Assembly (NCBI RefSeq): GCF_000166775.1
Contig: NC_014720.1
Location: forward strand, 1,172,501-1,236,500
Length of the DNA: 64,000 bases
From: Caldicellulosiruptor kronotskyensis 2002
GTDB taxonomy: Bacteria > Bacillota > Thermoanaerobacteria > Caldicellulosiruptorales > Caldicellulosiruptoraceae
Direction of reading: 5' to 3'
In this document: positions 27,648 through 37,477 of the stretch, piece after piece
Layout of the letters: each line of letters starts with the position of its first letter
How positions within the stretch are numbered: the first letter of the stretch is position 1
Translations under genes and position numbers: made by a program
The notes under the pieces: model-generated
Database searches by the model: none
Seen by the model: only the letters and a program-made list of their open reading frames with translations
What the model was told of the DNA's origin: nothing

Positions 27648-28025
27648 ATGCAAATAGCAAGGATTCAAATTCACCAGGAGTTTGTAAAGGTAAAACTTTC
27701 TCAGGAGCATATAAAAGTTAGAATAAATCAAGACAGGTGCTGGGAAGAGGTAAACCTTGGTTCAACAGACTACCTTGTGCGTAGTTCTGCTCAAAGAGGT
27801 TATGAGCAGGTTTTAAGGTATATAGAAAAGACAGCAGAAAATGGCAACAGACTTGCCAGAATTGAAGATGGTGGTCAGCCTATAATTGACATATGCATAG
27901 AAGAAGCATTTCCTGAGTATGGCTATAACGTAGATGTCATCCCAAAAAGCCGCCCGCAAATTTACTTTGAAGGTGGCAAGGTGTATATAGATTTTGAGAT
28001 GGGTAAGGTTGATGTGAGGGTATGA
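27648..28025 (+). CDS. DUF6470 protein, YviE-like
   Basis: About 125 residues from the ATG at 27648 (GAGGAAG upstream; GTG at 27639 is also open). Beta-rich protein starting with MQIARIQIHQEFVKVKL and ending with an acidic strand region (FEGGKVYIDFEMGKVDVRV). It sits between flgL and fliW, where yviE lies in B. subtilis; such proteins are common in late flagellar operons but have no established role. Its stop overlaps the next start by 4 nt. Confidence 0.75.
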   Translation: MQIARIQIHQEFVKVKLSQEHIKVRINQDRCWEEVNLGSTDYLVRSSAQRGYEQVLRYIEKTAENGNRLARIEDGGQPIIDICIEEAFPEYGYNVDVIPKSRPQIYFEGGKVYIDFEMGKVDVRV

Positions 28026-28441
28026 ACGGAAGAGAGGTTATAATAGATAAGATAAGCAAAATAATGTTTAGAATGAAAAGAATAGAGAGATTTAAAAGTA
28101 TTACATTTGAAAATTTTAAAGATATTAGTAATATTCAAGATGTAGTTGCTTACAATTTATTTTTGATTGCTCAAAATCTAATAAGCCTGTGCAATCGCAT
28201 AATTGCTGAAAAACAATTTAAAGTACCTGAGAATTTTGAAGATATTCCTGAAATTTTAGCTACCGAGAAGGTTATTTCGGATGATTCTTCTGTCTTTATA
28301 AAGAAAATGATTGATTTGAGAAATACAATTGTTTATGAATATACCCAATTAGATTTAAATGTTATATATGACATTTTGAAGAATGGTTTAGATGAAATTA
28401 AGAATGTTCTTAAGGAAATTGTGGATTATTTAAAACTATAA
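28022..28441 (+). CDS. HepT-like (DUF86/HEPN) protein lacking the catalytic histidine
   Basis: 139 residues, all-helical, with the HepT/DUF86 layout: N-terminal helices ending near 60, a middle segment, and MIDLRNTIVYEYTQLD (about 98-113). In HepT toxins the signature is RN..VH.Y, an Rx4H RNase motif. Here the histidine position is Tyr. No MNT antitoxin gene is adjacent. It lies between yviE and fliW, overlapping yviE by 4 nt, so it is co-expressed with flagellar genes. An inactive or repurposed HEPN protein is inferred. Confidence 0.7.
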   Translation: MNGREVIIDKISKIMFRMKRIERFKSITFENFKDISNIQDVVAYNLFLIAQNLISLCNRIIAEKQFKVPENFEDIPEILATEKVISDDSSVFIKKMIDLRNTIVYEYTQLDLNVIYDILKNGLDEIKNVLKEIVDYLKL

Positions 28442-28458: not shown

Positions 28459-28917
28459 ATGGTAGTCCAAAAGTCAGTAGTCCAATCAAGAGTATTTGGA
28501 GAGCTTGAAGTAAATGAGGAGAATATAATAACCTTTGAAGATGGAATTCCTGCATTTGAGAATTTAAAAAAATTTGTAATTGTCAAAGAAGAAGACAGTC
28601 CCTTTTTGTGGCTACAGTCAATCGAAGATAAAGACATTGCATTTGTCATCATTAATCCATTTGACATAAAACCTGACTATGAATTTGATATAGGTGAGGA
28701 AGTTTTAAAAAAGCTTGAGATAGAATCAGAAAGCGATGTTGCAGTTTTTTGTATTGTTGTAATTCCAGAAGATGTAAAGCAAACAAGAGTAAACTTAAAA
28801 GCTCCAATTATTATAAATGTGCACAAGAGAAAGGGAATACAGTATCTTTTAGATGATGAAAGATATCCACTTCGATATTACCTTTTTGAAAATTTGAATT
28901 CAGATGAGCAGAAATGA
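28459..28917 (+). CDS. fliW: Flagellar assembly factor FliW
   Basis: 152-residue beta-barrel protein. Landmarks: FGELEVNEENIITFEDGIPAFENLKKFVIV (about 15-44), PFLWLQSIEDKDIAFVIINPF and APIIINVHKRKGIQ. FliW binds CsrA and relieves its repression of flagellin translation, and binds flagellin itself. It is followed by csrA 12 nt later; the fliC leader at 37551-37596 carries the matching CsrA sites. Confidence 0.93.
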   Translation: MVVQKSVVQSRVFGELEVNEENIITFEDGIPAFENLKKFVIVKEEDSPFLWLQSIEDKDIAFVIINPFDIKPDYEFDIGEEVLKKLEIESESDVAVFCIVVIPEDVKQTRVNLKAPIIINVHKRKGIQYLLDDERYPLRYYLFENLNSDEQK

Positions 28918-28929
28918 GGTATATAAAAG

Positions 28930-29172
28930 ATGCTTGTTCTTTCGCGAAAAGAAGGCGACCAAATTTTAATTGGAGATGATATAATAATAAAAGTCATCAG
29001 TGTAGAAAAAGACTGTGTAAAACTTGGAATAGAGGCTCCAAAAAATATCAAGGTTTTGAGATATGAGCTACTTCAAGAGGTCAAAAATGAAAACGTTGAA
29101 GCGTTGCAGGGAAGAAAGAGACTCAGCAAAATTAAAGATTTAAAAGAGATTTTGTCCGACGAGCAAGTATAA
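28930..29172 (+). CDS. csrA: Carbon storage regulator / translational repressor CsrA
   Basis: 80 residues. The RNA-binding core MLVLSRKEGDQILIGDDI...VKLGIEAPKNIKVLR(Y)EL is complete, with a C-terminal extension of about 20 residues typical of Firmicutes. It represses flagellin translation by covering the Shine-Dalgarno; FliW antagonises it. In B. subtilis hag follows directly, whereas here 8.4 kb separates csrA from fliC. Confidence 0.94.
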   Translation: MLVLSRKEGDQILIGDDIIIKVISVEKDCVKLGIEAPKNIKVLRYELLQEVKNENVEALQGRKRLSKIKDLKEILSDEQV

Positions 29173-29207
29173 AATTGCAAGAAACAAGAAGTTGGAAGGG
29201 CTTACTT

Positions 29208-29236
29208 AAAGGCAGGAACAAAACCTGCCTTTTTAT
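29208..29236 (+). terminator. Terminator of the flgM-csrA operon
   Basis: AAAGGCAGG (29208-29216) pairs with CCTGCCTTT (29224-29232), followed by T-rich sequence. It ends the late flagellar unit before the accessory block. Confidence 0.88.
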
Positions 29237-29267
29237 TTTTGGGGATAATTTTAATTAGGGTAGACTC

Positions 29268-29366
29268 AAAAATTTAAAGTATATTTTATAAAATTAGATT
29301 AAAAATTTAAAGTATACTTTATATTTTTGAGCTAAAAGTTAAAAGTATGTGTTATAATATTAAATT
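29268..29366 (+). repeat. Three tandem 33-bp repeats in the ATPase promoter region
   Basis: Similar 23-bp cores begin at 29268, 29301 and 29334, exactly 33 bp apart. Cores 1 and 2 differ at one base; core 3 is more diverged. Core 2 contains the perfect palindrome AAAGTATACTTT (29309-29320), with degenerate versions at the same place in the others. The third unit includes TGTTATAAT (29350-29358), an extended -10, and the array ends at the ribosome-binding site. An operator array is the simplest reading. Confidence 0.75.
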
Positions 29367-29380
29367 AGGAGGTGAAAAGA

Positions 29381-30814
29381 TTGACCATTACAAGCTCAGA
29401 AAACATATTAAGAATTTTATACTCTTATAATCCCTGGTGGAGAGAAGGGTATTTTCCACAAGATTTATCTAAACCTGTAAAGAGAATGGCATACTATAGA
29501 GTTTTCAGTTTGCTAAATCATCCAACTATCAGAAGATATATCATACTTTCGGGTGCACGTCGCGTAGGTAAAACAACTATATTATACCAAATAATAGAGT
29601 CGCTTTTAAAAGATAAAGTTAATCCAAAAAAGATACTATATGTTTCTTTTGATCATCCTCTGTTTAAACTCTGTTCATTTGATCAAATTTTGAGTCTTTA
29701 TGAGCTAAACATCAATCAATCAAAGGAAGCTTATGTATTTTTGGATGAAATTCAATACGCAAGCGATTGGGACAGATGGCTAAAAGTATATTATGACCTG
29801 AGGCCAAAATGGAAGGTAGTTGCAACAGGTTCTGCTTCACCTAAACTTATTGAAGGAGTAAAGGAAAGTGGTGTTGGTCGCTGGACAGTCGTTTCAGTTC
29901 CAACTCTTTCATTTTATGAATTTTGTGAAATACTTGGTGTTGAAGAAAGACCTAAGAATTTACCAAATTTAGATTTTAGAGAGCTTTCAAATTTTAATGA
30001 TCATCAGATTTCTGAACTTGTCTTTTTGCTCATGCCTTTACAAAAATATTTCAACAGATACTTGATGGTTGGGGGATTCCCTGAATTTGTATTTTCAGAA
30101 GATTGGTTTTTAATTCAGAGAATTTTAAGAGAAGATGTGGTAGATAAGGTCATCAAAAGAGATATTCCTTCACTATTTAATGTTAGAAACTTGACAGTAT
30201 TAGAGAAAGTTTTCTTGTACTTGTGTTTCAACTCTTCAAGTGTAATAAATATTTCAACCATCAGCAAACAAATTGAGAATGTATCAGTTACCACAATAGA
30301 AAATTATATTCACTTGCTCGAAAATGCAAATTTGATTTATAGGAGCCTTCCAATTGAATTGGGCGGTAAAAAAGTTTTAAAAGCAAAACCGAAAATATAT
30401 ATATCTGACCCAGCTATTAGAAATGCAGTTTTAATGATAGATAATCTCTTCACCAATAGCAAAGAACTTGGAATTACAGTTGAAGCAGCAGTTTTTAAGC
30501 ATATATACAGCTTCTACAGTGAAGAGAATGTAAAGATAGGCTATTTTAGAAAACCGACTGATAATCAAAAAGAAATTGATATAGTTGCCCAGTTTCCAAA
30601 TGGTAAGAGCCTAATTGAGGTGAAGTTTAGAGAAGATAGCACACTTCCTGAGAGTGATGCAATTGTGGAGATGTGCCAAAAAGAAAAAGATATAATCTCA
30701 GCAGTGCTTATTACAAAGAGAGCAGAAGATTATGGGAAGCTTGAGCTTTCTGCAAAGGTTCCAATAATAAAGATTCCTGCGTTTGTATTTATGTATTTGC
30801 TGGGAAAAAGATAA
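29381..30814 (+). CDS. AAA_14/DUF4143 family ATPase
   Basis: About 477 residues. AAA ATPase with Walker A GARRVGKT (58-65), Walker B AYVFLDEIQYASDW (117-130) and sensor region VVATGSASPKLI. The C-terminal DUF4143 part contains EIDIVAQFPNGKSLIEVKF, a PD-(D/E)XK-like strand pair. Such ATPases are abundant in thermophiles, often near defence genes, but their role is not settled. The TTG at 29381 is chosen since AGGAGGTG lies 7 nt upstream; GTG at 29372 overlaps that site. It stands alone between two terminators. Confidence 0.8.
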   Translation: MTITSSENILRILYSYNPWWREGYFPQDLSKPVKRMAYYRVFSLLNHPTIRRYIILSGARRVGKTTILYQIIESLLKDKVNPKKILYVSFDHPLFKLCSFDQILSLYELNINQSKEAYVFLDEIQYASDWDRWLKVYYDLRPKWKVVATGSASPKLIEGVKESGVGRWTVVSVPTLSFYEFCEILGVEERPKNLPNLDFRELSNFNDHQISELVFLLMPLQKYFNRYLMVGGFPEFVFSEDWFLIQRILREDVVDKVIKRDIPSLFNVRNLTVLEKVFLYLCFNSSSVINISTISKQIENVSVTTIENYIHLLENANLIYRSLPIELGGKKVLKAKPKIYISDPAIRNAVLMIDNLFTNSKELGITVEAAVFKHIYSFYSEENVKIGYFRKPTDNQKEIDIVAQFPNGKSLIEVKFREDSTLPESDAIVEMCQKEKDIISAVLITKRAEDYGKLELSAKVPIIKIPAFVFMYLLGKR

Positions 30815-30993: not shown

Positions 30994-31830
30994 ATGAAAC
31001 AAACTTCAGAACTTGAAGTTGTTATAAAAGAGCTCAAAGATGCTTTAAAGGTATTCAACAAAATAACAGAGATAAAACCAAATGACAAAGATGTTTTAGA
31101 AAAGTTAGAAAAATTTGTAGTTAGCGCGTCAAATCTTAGCAGTGTTTTTGAAACACTGAATGATATTATAACCAGAGCAAAAGACATAATTGCCAAAGAA
31201 AAGGAAAAAATGTCTTACAACTTTAAACTAATTGAATCTGAATTGATCATGGAACTAAAAGAAAAAGGAGTTCCTCTAAGAGAGTGCAGTGATGGTTGGA
31301 GAATAAAAAGTATCCAGTTAAAGACTAAACCTCAATCATCAACTGTTAGCATTTCTTATAATAATCAAACAATCATTGGTTGGACTAGGGTAAATTCAAA
31401 AGAAGATATTAAATCTTTGATAGAAGAGGCAGAAAAGTTACTATTTCAATTCCTTATGCCTAAGGATGAACTTATAGATATATTCTGGGATGCATATAAA
31501 TATGCAAGATTTAAAAGTGGCAGGGATGTTGTGAGTATTTTCGATTTTTATACAGAAGTTAGACTACTTCAAATAAGAAGATATTTAGAAAAAAACAAAC
31601 CTGATGCTAAGATAACAAAGTATACAGAGTTTCCTAAATGGGCGTTTTTGTATAATTTAGATATCTACAGAAGCATATGGGATGAGATACCTAAAAACAA
31701 ACGGCTTGCCTTGCAAACTGGCAGTATGCAAGAAACAATGCAGGGTAAGGGTATGTATGTAAACGGGCTTAATCCTGATGATGATTACAAGATAATGTGC
31801 TATGTGTATGAAACAAAAGAAGGTGTTTAA
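30994..31830 (+). CDS. Unknown protein, first gene of the three-ATPase/helicase operon
   Basis: 278 residues, not recognised. The N-terminal ~85 residues are helical with heptad-like spacing (possible coiled coil). The middle (about 95-135) is beta-rich with SISYNNQTIIGWTRV. The C-terminal part (about 150-278) is mixed, with aromatic-rich segments such as YTEFPKWAFLYNLDIYRSIWDE. ATG with GGGGGCA upstream. It ends 3 nt before the first ATPase gene, so it is likely a subunit or adaptor of the same system. Confidence 0.7.
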   Translation: MKQTSELEVVIKELKDALKVFNKITEIKPNDKDVLEKLEKFVVSASNLSSVFETLNDIITRAKDIIAKEKEKMSYNFKLIESELIMELKEKGVPLRECSDGWRIKSIQLKTKPQSSTVSISYNNQTIIGWTRVNSKEDIKSLIEEAEKLLFQFLMPKDELIDIFWDAYKYARFKSGRDVVSIFDFYTEVRLLQIRRYLEKNKPDAKITKYTEFPKWAFLYNLDIYRSIWDEIPKNKRLALQTGSMQETMQGKGMYVNGLNPDDDYKIMCYVYETKEGV

Positions 31831-31833
31831 AAA

Positions 31834-32988
31834 ATGCAAATGATGAGCAAGGATAGTATATTGTCTTCACTCGAAAGGATTTCCCAGCATGGGATAGATG
31901 ATGTTGAGATTGCAGATTTGATTGATGTTGGGAATCAAGATTACATGAACTATTTTGAGAACGAAGTGATTGAGAATCTTATTGCAAAAGACGGAGCAAC
32001 ATGTAAATTTATTGAAGGTGCATATGGTGCTGGGAAAACTCATCTTTTAAATCTAATTTACAAAAAAGCTTTATCGAAAGACATGCTGGTTGCATTTACA
32101 ACTTTGGACAGTGCTGTTTCATTGACTGATTGGAAGCTGGTGGTTGAGTACATCTTGGAAAACGTCGAATACAGGCATGAAGGGATAACATACAAATCAC
32201 TGCCAGAGATTCTAACGTTTGCAGGTGAAAGATTGGTAGATGACAGGCAAAAGGAGATTTTAAAGTCAGCAAAATTGCCATCAGCAAGTTTTAAAAATGC
32301 CATTTTGCTTGCTCTTAACAAAAAGAATTTGAACAATGAGGCATGGGAAGTTGTAAAAGAGTATTTGGTTGGTCGAAAAGTCAATGTTCAAACCTTTAAA
32401 AGCGTGGGGATTTATAATGTAAAGGCAAGCTTGAGTAAGTCTAACGCAGAGAATGTTTTAAAAACAGTTTTATCATCTTTACATATTTTGGGGTTTAAAG
32501 GAGTTGTATTGTTGTTTGATGAAAATGAAAGAATGCTTTCGGGTTTTGGAGAAAGAATTTCAAGGCGTAGCCAGCTTGCAGCAAACCTTATGCGCCGATT
32601 AATTGATGGCTGTTCAAGTGGTGCTTTGGAAGGGGTTTTGATAGTATTTTCGGTTTTGCCTGACTTTATTTCCCAAGTTGCAAATAGGTACGAGGCTCTG
32701 GCTCAGCGCTTGCAGATAGTTCAAGGTGAAAATAAATGCGTAGGTTGGCGCCTTCCGCTTCAGAAAGTTGACTTTGTTAACACATTGAGCGAAGACCATA
32801 AGCTTTTTATGGTTAAAATGGTTGAGGCTTATTTAAGATTGGCTCAAAATTTTGGCATATTAAATGATGATTTTAAGAAAGAAGTCATAAACAGTTGCAT
32901 AATGGTACTAAGAAGAAATGTAGGTTCAGGTTATAAACGAGAGCTGGCAAAGACTATTGCTACTATGATATTAGAAAGGATGAGATAA
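31834..32988 (+). CDS. DUF2791/BrxD-like P-loop ATPase, paralogue A
   Basis: 384 residues. Walker A EGAYGAGKTHLL (61-72), Walker B VVLLFDENER (224-233), and an arginine-rich stretch after it (RISRRSQLAANLMRRLIDG). The GxYGxGKTH form and size are those of the DUF2791 ATPases, which include BrxD of BREX systems. Sensor-like region VFSVLPDFISQ follows. First of three tandem paralogues that differ strongly in sequence, so a hetero-oligomer is plausible. One base separates its stop from the next start. Confidence 0.8.
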   Translation: MQMMSKDSILSSLERISQHGIDDVEIADLIDVGNQDYMNYFENEVIENLIAKDGATCKFIEGAYGAGKTHLLNLIYKKALSKDMLVAFTTLDSAVSLTDWKLVVEYILENVEYRHEGITYKSLPEILTFAGERLVDDRQKEILKSAKLPSASFKNAILLALNKKNLNNEAWEVVKEYLVGRKVNVQTFKSVGIYNVKASLSKSNAENVLKTVLSSLHILGFKGVVLLFDENERMLSGFGERISRRSQLAANLMRRLIDGCSSGALEGVLIVFSVLPDFISQVANRYEALAQRLQIVQGENKCVGWRLPLQKVDFVNTLSEDHKLFMVKMVEAYLRLAQNFGILNDDFKKEVINSCIMVLRRNVGSGYKRELAKTIATMILERMR

Positions 32989-32989
32989 A

Positions 32990-34213
32990 TTGGATAAGAA
33001 CTTATTTTTAAGAGCATTATATACTATGGCACAACACGGAACAGCACCAGCTGAAGGATGTAAATATTTTGGTGTGGGATATGAGAATGTGTTTGAGGCA
33101 ATTAGACAAAAATACTTTTATGAGCATTTTGGCCGAAACATTTGCGCACAAAAATTTGTTGTAGGTCCATATGGGTCAGGAAAAACACATTTTTTGCGCC
33201 ATTTAATGGAAATTGCAAGAGATGAAAACTGTGTTACTTCCGAAATTGCTCTAAATCGGGATATTGATTTTTCTGATAAACTACTGATTTATAGTGAAGT
33301 TGTACGGAATATGAAAGCACCATTACAGCAGAATGAGGGTTTAAGTGAGTTTTTAAGATATACACTTGACAATATAATAAACGATACTAAAAATTCTCAG
33401 TATTTGAAAGAAAAATTTTTAAGAGATATCAATGATGGTAGCTTTAAATCACGAGAATTCGGGAAGGTTATAAAATTAGCAATAATTTCCTACCTCAACG
33501 GGGATATTTCAACCTTTGATTCGTGCTGTGATTATTTATTAGGCAATATTTCAGACAGTAAACTTTGTAGAGAATTGGGTATATCCAAAGTGACAAAATC
33601 AGCTCAAAATAAGCGTGCAGAGGATATGCTTTTTTCTCTTTTCCAGTTTGTTTATTATATTGGTTATAGAGGAATAATTGTGGGTTTTGATGAGGCTGAA
33701 CAGAGTTTTAATGTTGATAGAAAAAAACTTGCCAAGATTTTTTCAACACTGCGTTCTTTATTAGATGCTATTGTCAACTTAAAAGATGCCTCTGCCCTAA
33801 TTGTATATGCTATGACAAATGATGTTTATGAAGAAATGAATAAATACCCAGCATTGCAGCAAAGGCTTTCAAGTCCGTATGAGAAGGATTTTTTTAGTGG
33901 AAATGTTTTAGCCCCAGTTATTAACCTTACACGACTTGATTCTATTGATTTGTCAAAGAAAATTGCTATGAAGATTTCAGATGTATTTTATGAGACTTTC
34001 AAAGACCAAATTAACATTTCAAAAGATGAGATACTAAAAAAGGCTGACGAGATATCAGGTGAAATTATAAAAAGAGGTGTTTCGAGCTCAAACAAGCGTG
34101 AAATAACAAAGGCTGTTTGCACATATTTGTTAGAAATTCTTGAAGAAAGAGAGATTAATTATGGTAATTTAGGAAAAATATATACACAAAACATATACGA
34201 AGATGAGGTTTAA
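32990..34213 (+). CDS. DUF2791/BrxD-like P-loop ATPase, paralogue B
   Basis: 407 residues from a TTG with AGAAAGGATG upstream. Walker A VGPYGSGKTHFLR (58-70), Walker B IIVGFDEAEQ (229-238). N-terminal AEGCKYFGVGYENVFEAIRQKYF resembles the helical domain of paralogue A. After Walker B come KKLAKIFSTLRSLLDAI and YPALQQRLSSPYEK, the latter matching YEALAQRLQIVQGEN of paralogue A. The shared pattern shows descent from a common ATPase. Confidence 0.8.
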   Translation: MDKNLFLRALYTMAQHGTAPAEGCKYFGVGYENVFEAIRQKYFYEHFGRNICAQKFVVGPYGSGKTHFLRHLMEIARDENCVTSEIALNRDIDFSDKLLIYSEVVRNMKAPLQQNEGLSEFLRYTLDNIINDTKNSQYLKEKFLRDINDGSFKSREFGKVIKLAIISYLNGDISTFDSCCDYLLGNISDSKLCRELGISKVTKSAQNKRAEDMLFSLFQFVYYIGYRGIIVGFDEAEQSFNVDRKKLAKIFSTLRSLLDAIVNLKDASALIVYAMTNDVYEEMNKYPALQQRLSSPYEKDFFSGNVLAPVINLTRLDSIDLSKKIAMKISDVFYETFKDQINISKDEILKKADEISGEIIKRGVSSSNKREITKAVCTYLLEILEEREINYGNLGKIYTQNIYEDEV

Positions 34214-34217
34214 AAAC

Positions 34218-35375
34218 ATGATGAGAGAAGATACCACATTTAAAAAATTAAGGGTTATAGAATCACTTAGATTTGGATTGGTGCCAGAGTATTACATAGA
34301 CCAGCTTACAATAGGTTTTGATCAGATCAAAGATGTTACAGAAAAGATACTGAGAAAATGCGAGTCTTTTTTGCCTGTTGGATTTCAAGTTTGTGGAGAA
34401 TATGGCTGTGGAAAAAGTCACACCCTATCTGTTATGAGATATATAGCACGAAAAGAAGGGTTTTTTACATTTAAAGTGGAAGTTGATGGAGAAGGCATAA
34501 GCCTTTCTAATCCATCAAAACTATTGAACATATTATTTTTAAGTATTCAAGACAATGATATATATTCAGACTACCCGTTAGTAAGTCTTTTTTTAAAGGC
34601 ATTGCTATTGAAAAACGGCAGCTTTGAAAAACTAAAAAGATTTGAAACAATCCAAAAATACCTAAATGTTATAACAGCTTTAGCTGAGGTGGGTTTATTA
34701 GATGAATATTCTTATTTTATAGAATCACTTCTTACATGCAGTGATGAGGTAAGTGCAACTGATGTAAATGAAATGCTATCAAGTGCTTTGAGATATTCTG
34801 GATATTCAAATTTAAAACTGAAAACTCTTATTAGTAGAAAAGTAGATGAACGATATTTTAATTTTATTGAGGCATTAGCAGGGATTGCCACTTTAGTAGT
34901 TGCTGCAGGTTATAAAGGCCTTATGGTTACAATAGACGAGTATGAGGTGGAAAGAATAAAAAATCCAAGCAATTATAAAATGGTTCAAGACATGTTGTAC
35001 GTAATTGGACGATATTTAAGTGGCGGGTTGAATATTCCAAGAGCTCCACTTTGTATAATATTTTCAGCAATAAATCAAGGTGGCGAAAAGGGTGATCCAG
35101 ACATCACAAGATATATTTCAAAAACACCTGAAAATATGTTTGAGGTGACAAAGTGGAGTGAATCTCAAAAAATAGAGCTTTTAAAAAAGCTGCATGTCCT
35201 TTACTGTGAGACTTATCAATTGTGGTCTGAGTTTAGCTTAAGCACAGGAGAAAATCTAACAAAACTCATAGAAAGTAAACTTCCTAACAGTGAGAGCAGG
35301 CAGATTCGTTCGATTATAAAATGGTATTTGACACTACTGGATTTGCAGTATGGACCACCAGGCATAAGAAGGTGA
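34218..35375 (+). CDS. DUF2791/BrxD-like P-loop ATPase, paralogue C
   Basis: About 385 residues from the ATG at 34218 (GAGG 9 nt upstream); an ATG at 34203 is also open and would overlap paralogue B. Walker A GEYGCGKSHTLS and Walker B LMVTIDEYEVE are complete (about 60 and 235 from this start). The most diverged of the three, with RFGLVPEYYIDQLTIGFDQIKD at the N terminus, as in BrxD-type proteins. The helicase gene follows 8 nt after the stop. Confidence 0.8.
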   Translation: MMREDTTFKKLRVIESLRFGLVPEYYIDQLTIGFDQIKDVTEKILRKCESFLPVGFQVCGEYGCGKSHTLSVMRYIARKEGFFTFKVEVDGEGISLSNPSKLLNILFLSIQDNDIYSDYPLVSLFLKALLLKNGSFEKLKRFETIQKYLNVITALAEVGLLDEYSYFIESLLTCSDEVSATDVNEMLSSALRYSGYSNLKLKTLISRKVDERYFNFIEALAGIATLVVAAGYKGLMVTIDEYEVERIKNPSNYKMVQDMLYVIGRYLSGGLNIPRAPLCIIFSAINQGGEKGDPDITRYISKTPENMFEVTKWSESQKIELLKKLHVLYCETYQLWSEFSLSTGENLTKLIESKLPNSESRQIRSIIKWYLTLLDLQYGPPGIRR

Positions 35376-35383
35376 TAAGAAAT

Positions 35384-37477
35384 ATGGATAATGGCTATTT
35401 AGAAGATCTAAATATTAAGAATCAGCTTTCTTCAACATGGGATATGTTTTTTGGAAGCTATGGTAGACTAAAAGATGTTCAAAGAAAGGCAATTCCCAAA
35501 ATACTTGAGGGAAAAGATATTTTAATATGCTCACCTACTGCAAGTGGCAAAACAGAAGCTGCATGTGCACCCTTGATTGAGAGGTTAAAGTCAAGGTTCA
35601 AGGTCTGGACAATTTTATACATTTGTCCAACAAGAGCACTAGTTAACGATATCTATGAAAGGCTTATTTCACGGCTTATCTATTATGATATTAATATTTT
35701 AAGAAAAACAGGGGATTATCAAGCCGAATTTAAAACAATTCCGAATATACTAATTACAACACCAGAGTCATTTGACAGTATGATGTGTAGAGGAAAACTT
35801 AAAAATGGTTTTGGGCATATTTTATCTTGTGTTTATGCGGTTATTTTAGATGAGGTGCATCTTTTATATGGTAGCTCAAGAGGTGAGCAAGTAAGATGGC
35901 TACTTGAAAGGTTAAGAAGGCTAAAAGCTCAAGCTTTTAAAGAAAAGTGGTGTGATGATGAAAAGATTCAGATTATTGGAATGAGTGCAACAATGAAGGA
36001 ACCTGAAAAGATATTAAAGTATTATATTCCTGATGGTGAAATAATAAAAGCTGAAGGGAAAAGAGAAATAAATCTAATATCAGATGAAATTGTTTCAATT
36101 GATGAGACAATATTCAAGTATTTTTGCAGCATTGATTTTCAAAACAGGTTTAAGAAAATTCTAATTTTTTGTAATTCAAGAAATAAAGTTGATGCTTTAG
36201 TAGCAGAGCTCAGAAGTATTTTAAAAGATTCAAACTACCAAATTGTATCTCATCATGGCAGTTTAGCAAAGTCTGAAAGAGAAGAAACTGAAGAAATTTT
36301 AAAAAGGCATGAAAGGGTTATAGCAGTTTCATCTTCTACCTTTGAAATAGGAATTGATATTGGCTCAATTGATTTGGTTGTTTTGGCAGAACCGCCGCTT
36401 GATATGAATAGCTTTCTTCAAAGAATTGGGCGTGGGAACAGAAAAAATGAGAGAATAGAGGTCCTTTTATGTGCTGAAAATGATACTCAAAGACTAATTC
36501 AAAAAGCTATGCTCCTTTGTGCACAAAATGGAATTCTTTTAAATACAGCAGTGGGGAATATTTTTCATGTTATTATCCAGCAGATAATCTCATACATATT
36601 TCAGTCAAAAGATTTTAAACGAAGCAAAGATGCACTAAAAAGCTTAATAGAATCTTGTTTAAAATATTATTTTGAAGACTTATCAGTTGCAAATGACATT
36701 ATAAACAATCTAATTTTAAGCAGCCAGCTCAAAGAAGCGGATGATGGCAAGCTAACTGTAAAGAATGATTGGTTTGATAAGTTTTCAAACGGACAAATTC
36801 ATTCAACAATTAGATTTGCAAGCGGAATGTCAATTTATGATCTTGAAAAGAATAAGGTTTTAGCAACAAATGTCCAAGATTTTCAAAACAAAAGGATTAA
36901 AATTACAGGTCAAAACAAAGAGATAATAGATATTCAAGGAAACAGTTTAATTGTGAAAAATTCATCTGAGAAGTTAGATGGTGGTCTTTTAAGTTATGCA
37001 CCATATGAAACTATATTTTTTAATACGCAGCCTTATGCAATAAGGACATATTTGGGATTAGAAGATAAAGTTTTTCCTTATATTATTAGAGATAATATGG
37101 TTTATGTCTTTCATTTAGGATCAACACAAAGGGAGTTTTTTATAAAGTTATTAATAAGGATGTTAGATTTAAAGGCTATTGAAGCTGTTAATCCGTTTTT
37201 AGTGCAATTTAATAAAAGTTATTGTAATAAAGTTATTTCATCTTTGAAAGATCTAAACTATTATTCAATGATTGAATTTATAGAAAAAGATATTGAATGG
37301 ATAGAAAAAGCTTTAAAAATCAATCCTCACAACAAACTGCTTCCAATGAAAATCAGGCTAAAAGAAATAGTTAGGATTATAAATTTGGAAAATGAAATAA
37401 AACTATTTAAAAAAGCTGAATTTCAAAATGTCACTCATACACAATTAGAAATGTACCTTGCAAAATTAATACATTAA
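35384..37477 (+). CDS. Lhr-like DEAD/DEAH-box helicase (BrxHI-like)
   Basis: About 697 residues from the ATG at 35384 (AGAAGGTGATA upstream); the frame is open into the previous gene from 35321. Superfamily 2 motifs: Q-like DVQRKAIPKIL, motif I PTASGKTE (51-58), Ia PTRALVND, II DEVH (156-159) in DEVHLLYGSSRGEQVRWLL, III SAT (201-203), V FEIGIDIGSIDLV, VI QRIGRGNR (346-353). The DEVHLLYGSSRG form is typical of Lhr/Ski2-like enzymes. The last ~300 residues are unassigned; no DUF1998 cysteine motif is seen. Confidence 0.85.
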   Translation: MDNGYLEDLNIKNQLSSTWDMFFGSYGRLKDVQRKAIPKILEGKDILICSPTASGKTEAACAPLIERLKSRFKVWTILYICPTRALVNDIYERLISRLIYYDINILRKTGDYQAEFKTIPNILITTPESFDSMMCRGKLKNGFGHILSCVYAVILDEVHLLYGSSRGEQVRWLLERLRRLKAQAFKEKWCDDEKIQIIGMSATMKEPEKILKYYIPDGEIIKAEGKREINLISDEIVSIDETIFKYFCSIDFQNRFKKILIFCNSRNKVDALVAELRSILKDSNYQIVSHHGSLAKSEREETEEILKRHERVIAVSSSTFEIGIDIGSIDLVVLAEPPLDMNSFLQRIGRGNRKNERIEVLLCAENDTQRLIQKAMLLCAQNGILLNTAVGNIFHVIIQQIISYIFQSKDFKRSKDALKSLIESCLKYYFEDLSVANDIINNLILSSQLKEADDGKLTVKNDWFDKFSNGQIHSTIRFASGMSIYDLEKNKVLATNVQDFQNKRIKITGQNKEIIDIQGNSLIVKNSSEKLDGGLLSYAPYETIFFNTQPYAIRTYLGLEDKVFPYIIRDNMVYVFHLGSTQREFFIKLLIRMLDLKAIEAVNPFLVQFNKSYCNKVISSLKDLNYYSMIEFIEKDIEWIEKALKINPHNKLLPMKIRLKEIVRIINLENEIKLFKKAEFQNVTHTQLEMYLAKLIH

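Follow-up and report, generated by a model that had tools for sequence, protein, structure and literature searches.

Phased tandem palindromes in the promoter of a DUF4143 ATPase gene form a conserved and probably autoregulatory operator in Bacillota

The window analysed here is the whole 64-kb stretch of Caldicellulosiruptor kronotskyensis 2002 DNA, and all positions refer to it. Three 33-bp units occupy positions 29268-29366, between csrA with its terminator and the gene of a DUF4143 ATPase. The features of the locus are:

28930..29172, + strand: csrA (Pfam CsrA, 1.1e-22), the upstream neighbour, outside the module
29208..29236, + strand: intrinsic terminator AAAGGCAGG...CCTGCCTTTTT between csrA and the array, read in the sequence and conserved in 12/12 genus loci
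29268..29300, + strand: operator unit 1, with an 18-bp site at 29273-29290 (matrix score 16.6 bits), conserved across the genus loci
29301..29333, + strand: operator unit 2, with an 18-bp site at 29306-29323 (18.8 bits, the top score of the 64-kb window)
29334..29366, + strand: operator unit 3, its left half-site merged with the promoter, with an 18-bp site at 29339-29356 (9.0 bits)
29350..29358, + strand: extended -10 TGTTATAAT, read in the sequence
29367..29374, + strand: ribosome-binding site AGGAGGTG, read in the sequence, directly 3' of the array
29381..30814, + strand: DUF4143 ATPase gene (Pfam, PADLOC and AlphaFold2; start from homologue alignment)

The first-pass annotation of this DNA had described three cores exactly 33 bp apart, and the sequence bears this out, with unit starts at 29268, 29301 and 29334. 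The units share 25/33 (1-2), 27/33 (1-3) and 23/33 (2-3) positions. The array has the top Tandem Repeats Finder score of the window (114; the runner-up scores 66), and a three-copy statistic over the intergenic region gives 48/66 matches, against a maximum of 43 in 2000 dinucleotide shuffles. The palindrome reported for the second core, with degenerate copies in the other two, is likewise present: AAAGTATACTTT lies at 29309-29320 inside unit 2, its version in unit 1, AAAGTATATTTT, carries one mismatch, and unit 3 holds the left half only, AAAGTATGTGTT, which runs into the extended -10, the overlap claimed there. A larger palindrome in unit 2 had been missed: AAAAATTTAAAGTATACTTTATATTTTT, at 29301-29328, is 26/28 self-complementary. 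The array does end at the ribosome-binding site, whose first base is the next after unit 3. The claim that bound proteins would lie on one DNA face is right in that the spacing is near three turns, but 33 bp amounts to ~3.1 helical turns, and the alignment is therefore only approximate.

The likely start codon of the ATPase is TTG at 29381, which aligns with the Met of its homologues; GTG at 29372 overlaps the ribosome-binding site, a small correction in favour of the TTG. The array lies upstream of the predicted transcription start. An Rfam search of 28900-29500 returned no match to any family, and an RNA element such as a riboswitch or attenuator was rejected on this basis.

The ATPase gene or a remnant of it is found in 12/12 genomes of the genus, and the array is present in all 12, at the same position and downstream of the same type of terminator. 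The unit 2 core AAAGTATACTTT is perfect or nearly so in each of them (one has GAAGTATACTTT), the 33-bp spacing is exact across the 12 loci bar one 1-bp insertion, and in the genus locus alignment TGNTATAAT at the extended -10 is conserved in every genome that retains the gene start. The gene directly upstream varies, being either csrA or, in four other species, a HepT-like gene, which indicates that the array travels with the ATPase and not with csrA.

This association extends well beyond the genus. In Thermoanaerobacter, Caldanaerobacter and related genera, orthologues of ~80% identity are embedded in wholly unrelated flanking DNA. Their promoters nevertheless contain slightly varying forms of the palindrome AAAATATAAAGTATACTTTATATTTT, followed after 33 bp by a second copy that overlaps the -10. 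Most homologues of ~50% identity have the array upstream in degenerate form. We assembled 38 non-redundant orthologue promoters from across Bacillota (45-100% protein identity), in which a de novo motif search returned the palindrome TGTAAAGTATACTTTACA; a search without the palindrome constraint gave AAAAATnnnAAGTATAcTT, with the same core. A strong site is present in 35/38 promoters, compared with 5.9 expected from shuffled sequences. Site pairs at 31-35 bp number 25, compared with 0.23 expected, 13 of them at 33 bp and 11 at 34 bp, and 19/38 promoters contain a pair at one of these two spacings. From lineage to lineage the sites keep their positions with respect to the start codon, and in their outer flanks palindromy is kept though the letters differ.

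Because the matrix had been trained on these same promoters, we repeated the search on half of the data and scored the held-out half. Two of the four runs found the palindrome, and in these strong sites occurred in 14/19 and 16/19 held-out promoters, against ~2 expected, with 8 pairs each at 33-34 bp, against <=0.02 expected; the other two trainings fell into A/T-rich, promoter-like optima and are not counted as support.

The region is 76% A+T, a composition in which short repeats are common, and one could read the array as a chance A/T-rich repeat conserved by common descent only. The shuffle tests, the exact 33/34 spacing and the controls with paralogues and other promoters described below all speak against this, as does the persistence of the sites in homologues of ~50% protein identity, a distance at which neutral DNA would have become saturated with changes. 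We rejected this reading on the shuffles and the comparison between species and regard it as practically out of the question. The array is a phased, palindromic control element, deeply conserved and maintained over a very long period in many bacteria.

The site is also confined to this gene. The first-pass annotation had proposed looking for the palindrome before other DUF4143 ATPases: among paralogous DUF4143 genes in the same genomes, strong sites precede 2/20 and pairs precede none. Upstream regions of other ORFs have a strong site in 16/151 cases, one of them with a pair. The genome-wide check consisted of pattern searches: the pattern matched 17 times in the own genome, compared with 12 for the reversed pattern, and 3/17 matches are the array itself. 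There was no clear excess of the site and no second tandem site in these searches. The sole other exact 12-mer in the genome is shared with other species and apparently lies in coding sequence, and the only site pairs in the window are those of the array. Across the flanks of the 38 loci, no gene family other than the ATPase is held in common. The site marks the ATPase gene only. The annotation had held that its reading would fall if orthologues lacked conserved upstream repeats and the genome contained no other copies. The first of these is false, given the array in 12/12 genus genomes, in other genera and, degenerate, before most ~50%-identical homologues. The second is true, and is what one would expect under autoregulation.

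Other DUF4143 subfamilies were examined with a motif-free test for promoter repeats at any lag of 15-60 bp. For the orthologues the signal is highest at lags of 33-34 bp, with mean z of 1.29 and 1.14 where the null reaches at most 0.57. In 44 promoters of a paralogous subfamily, whose proteins have ~445 residues, it is highest at 32-33 bp (1.33 and 0.83, against a null maximum of 0.46), and the repeats differ in sequence, for example TTATGTGAT, AAAAAGTCG and TTCGCTGTAAAAAGTGGA. The 8 promoters of a third subfamily give their maximum at 40 bp (2.32, against at most 1.16 in the null). The lag test gave no repeat signal in a fourth, ~410-residue subfamily, and 110 ordinary promoters had no signal at 32-34 or 40 bp. 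A shared period with differing sequence would fit a period dictated by the geometry of the proteins, and it predicts the interval at which the protein repeats along DNA. We tentatively suggest, at somewhat less than even odds, that DUF4143 ATPases (PDC-S01) generally repress themselves through phased tandem operators whose period comes from oligomer geometry (32-34 bp in two subfamilies, 40 bp in the third) and whose sequence is specific to the subfamily; the generalisation is provisional because the 40-bp set is small. If it were true, DNA binding would be built into this abundant defence candidate, and its own promoter would be a ready reporter of ATPase state, for instance when invading DNA titrates or activates the protein. 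Tandem TTATGTGAT-type repeats 32 bp apart precede six genes of the 445-residue subfamily (L129, L130, L181, L182, L228 and L236), and repeats 39-40 bp apart occur in four promoters of a MIPR-type DUF4143 subfamily (L162, L165, L167 and L169).

The ATPase matches the Pfam profiles AAA_14 and DUF4143 over their full length (1.3e-33 and 1.7e-28) and is by profile a member of the PADLOC candidate PDC-S01 (2.5e-63); no NCBIfam model covers it. The predicted domain order is AAA_14, a winged helix at ~271-325 and a PD-(D/E)XK-like C-terminus. The Walker A and B residues G63, K64, T65, D122 and E123 are invariant in 17 homologues, and so are E398/D400 and E413/K415 of the PD-(D/E)XK-like motif (ExD...ExK). 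The AlphaFold2 model (mean pLDDT 86) places helices at 271-283, 291-297 and 303-315 and a strand at 319-324, an arrangement consistent with a winged helix. The N-terminal 350 residues of the model find their best structural matches in NLR, CED-4 and archaeal STAND ATPases (RPP1, CED-4; Z 15-17 over 260-286 residues), and the C-terminal domain, modelled separately, best matches McrC, of the nuclease McrBC (Foldseek E 7e-5). A sequence search against solved structures gave spurious designed-repeat matches only. The models predict a STAND-like NTPase with a winged helix and a PD-(D/E)XK nuclease domain.

PDC-S01, an ATPase fused to a PD-(D/E)XK domain, is reported to rank fourth in frequency among prokaryotic defence systems, and most candidates of this type await experimental validation (PMC12988326). 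The protein is a candidate for a role in phage defence. A mobile or phage origin of the gene was considered and rejected: homologues were absent from the phage records and viral contigs searched, and a plasmid search returned a single match, of 29.5% identity.

The conservation of the site together with the gene through changes of neighbourhood, and its confinement to the gene's own promoter, support the earlier proposal of an operator, and we regard the element as almost certainly a true one. Autoregulation, suggested alongside it, has the most support of the readings considered, since the loci have nothing but the ATPase in common; a site kept with its gene through every neighbourhood change and found nowhere else is as self-regulation predicts. 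That the ATPase itself binds the array is probable, and its self-repression through the array is the simplest reading and the best explanation as a whole, with a probability of about 0.7. Dimers or higher oligomers of the ATPase would contact the array by way of the winged helix, with one dimer on the 18-28 bp palindrome of each 33-bp unit. The unit over the extended -10 would block RNA polymerase, neighbouring units about three turns apart would stabilise binding, and the ATPase would thereby repress its own promoter. Binding, repression by occlusion of the -10 and cooperativity are the steps that we infer.

Several points weigh against the ATPase as the binder. Winged helices in STAND and NLR-like proteins are often structural and not DNA-binding; the ~410-residue subfamily lacks the repeats; and the array is kept after loss of the ATPase, as set out below. 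The divergence of the operator correlates with that of the protein domains at Spearman 0.13-0.26, with partial correlations near 0, and does not favour the winged helix over other domains.

The positions of the sites bear on the direction of control. In four orthologue promoters (L081, L094, L114 and L119) both strong sites, centred at about -100 and -66 relative to the start codon, lie upstream of the -10 and leave it uncovered. This would suit positive or dual control, in which the ATPase or another protein activates from upstream units and represses at the -10, like C proteins. In many of the paired promoters, however, the -10 region lies under one of the sites, as is usual for repression, and the extended -10 of the window promoter would probably need no activator; we judge such control quite unlikely.

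The ATPase gene has been lost repeatedly. Four species of the genus (G001, G003, G006 and G008; loci L026-L029) share a deletion of the promoter region, the start and the codons to ~327, but all retain the array with its three palindromes. Between G001 and the other three, the array differs at 3-5 of ~72 bp and the dead remnant at ~65/437 (Fisher p 0.014, 0.039 and 0.094). A second homologue was looked for in the species with the truncated ATPase and not found. Either the array has another user or the sample is too small. An array that outlives the N-terminus of the ATPase and diverges more slowly than the gene remnant is what one would see if the operator were bound by a conserved Bacillota host transcription factor instead. 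Such a regulator should have other targets, yet the site is enriched neither in the own genome nor before other ORFs, and the similar period with different sequences in paralogous DUF4143 subfamilies points to the proteins themselves. A host-factor regulon was rejected for want of a genomic excess of sites, and we consider a host factor as the binder rather unlikely.

Two other, independent deletions, to codon 267 in G012 (L050), where a single decayed unit is left, and to codon 44 in G031 (L069), where the array is intact, bring to three the separate deletions that begin in or directly after the array. Such a coincidence would be expected if the array had no regulatory role and overlapped the promoter incidentally: it might serve the ATPase-nuclease as a target or for self-recognition, or be a hot spot of recombination. 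The conserved positions of the sites relative to the start codon argue otherwise, and costly genes are commonly lost with the upstream part retained; we hold a non-regulatory array to be very improbable. Self-repression by the ATPase is the reading that we retain. G009 carries an insertion element after ATPase codon 55 (L030:1660-2780). Losses this frequent suggest that the gene is costly. Four orthologues (L086, L088, L090 and L091) have early stops or frameshifts, which suggests that this gene family is often inactivated.

Several known systems resemble the arrangement proposed here. The homing endonuclease I-TevI is a nuclease that represses itself (PMC2988022), and the present proposal likewise has a protein with a nuclease domain act on an operator over its own promoter. 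I-TevI, however, belongs to the GIY-YIG enzymes and has a single operator site, whereas the present protein is a STAND-like ATPase that carries a PD-(D/E)XK-like domain and whose gene is preceded by two or three phased palindromes. Controller (C) proteins and toxin-antitoxin repressors use repeated operators (PMC3874152). C proteins of restriction-modification systems bind such operators in their own promoter cooperatively to time a toxic nuclease, but they are separate HTH regulators, and at the present loci no separate regulator gene is common and the effector itself is the candidate. BrxR/CapW, a winged-HTH protein acting on inverted repeats, represses a defence locus (PMC9122601, PMC9122589). 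We propose a similar combination of winged-helix protein and inverted repeats, although BrxR is a wHTH-WYL protein dedicated to repression, and the present sites recur in tandem every 33-34 bp. No adjacent wHTH-WYL gene of this type was found: the flanks share no gene, and the upstream neighbours in the window are HepT-like, FliW and CsrA. Type II toxin-antitoxin systems and omega/PaaR regulate themselves cooperatively through repeated or paired palindromic sites (PMC4803016, PMC3874152); the sites are alike, while the present system is a single gene with an AAA/STAND core and no antitoxin partner seen.

The literature searched holds no description of PDC-S01/DUF4143 regulation or of an operator, and mentions DUF4143 only in passing. 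A conserved self-operator would give the family its first concrete DNA target, a simple assay (gel shift, promoter fusion) and a handle on the releasing signal, and the operator motif would help to classify its members.

The surroundings of the locus have features of their own. Between the ATPase and flagellin genes, window positions 30994-37477 encode in a row a 278-residue protein that matches no family, three ATPases like BrxC/BrxD (SngB) and a helicase like BrxH/SngC, which would make up a Shango- or BREX-like cassette in the flagellar locus. A HepT-family RNase toxin gene lies at 28022-28441, between flagellar genes and fliW, and a HepT-like sequence is found immediately upstream of the array in the four other species in which it takes the place of csrA. 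One genome (G017) carries two copies of the ATPase gene (L063 and L070) with the same bit score and identical upstream 400 bp.
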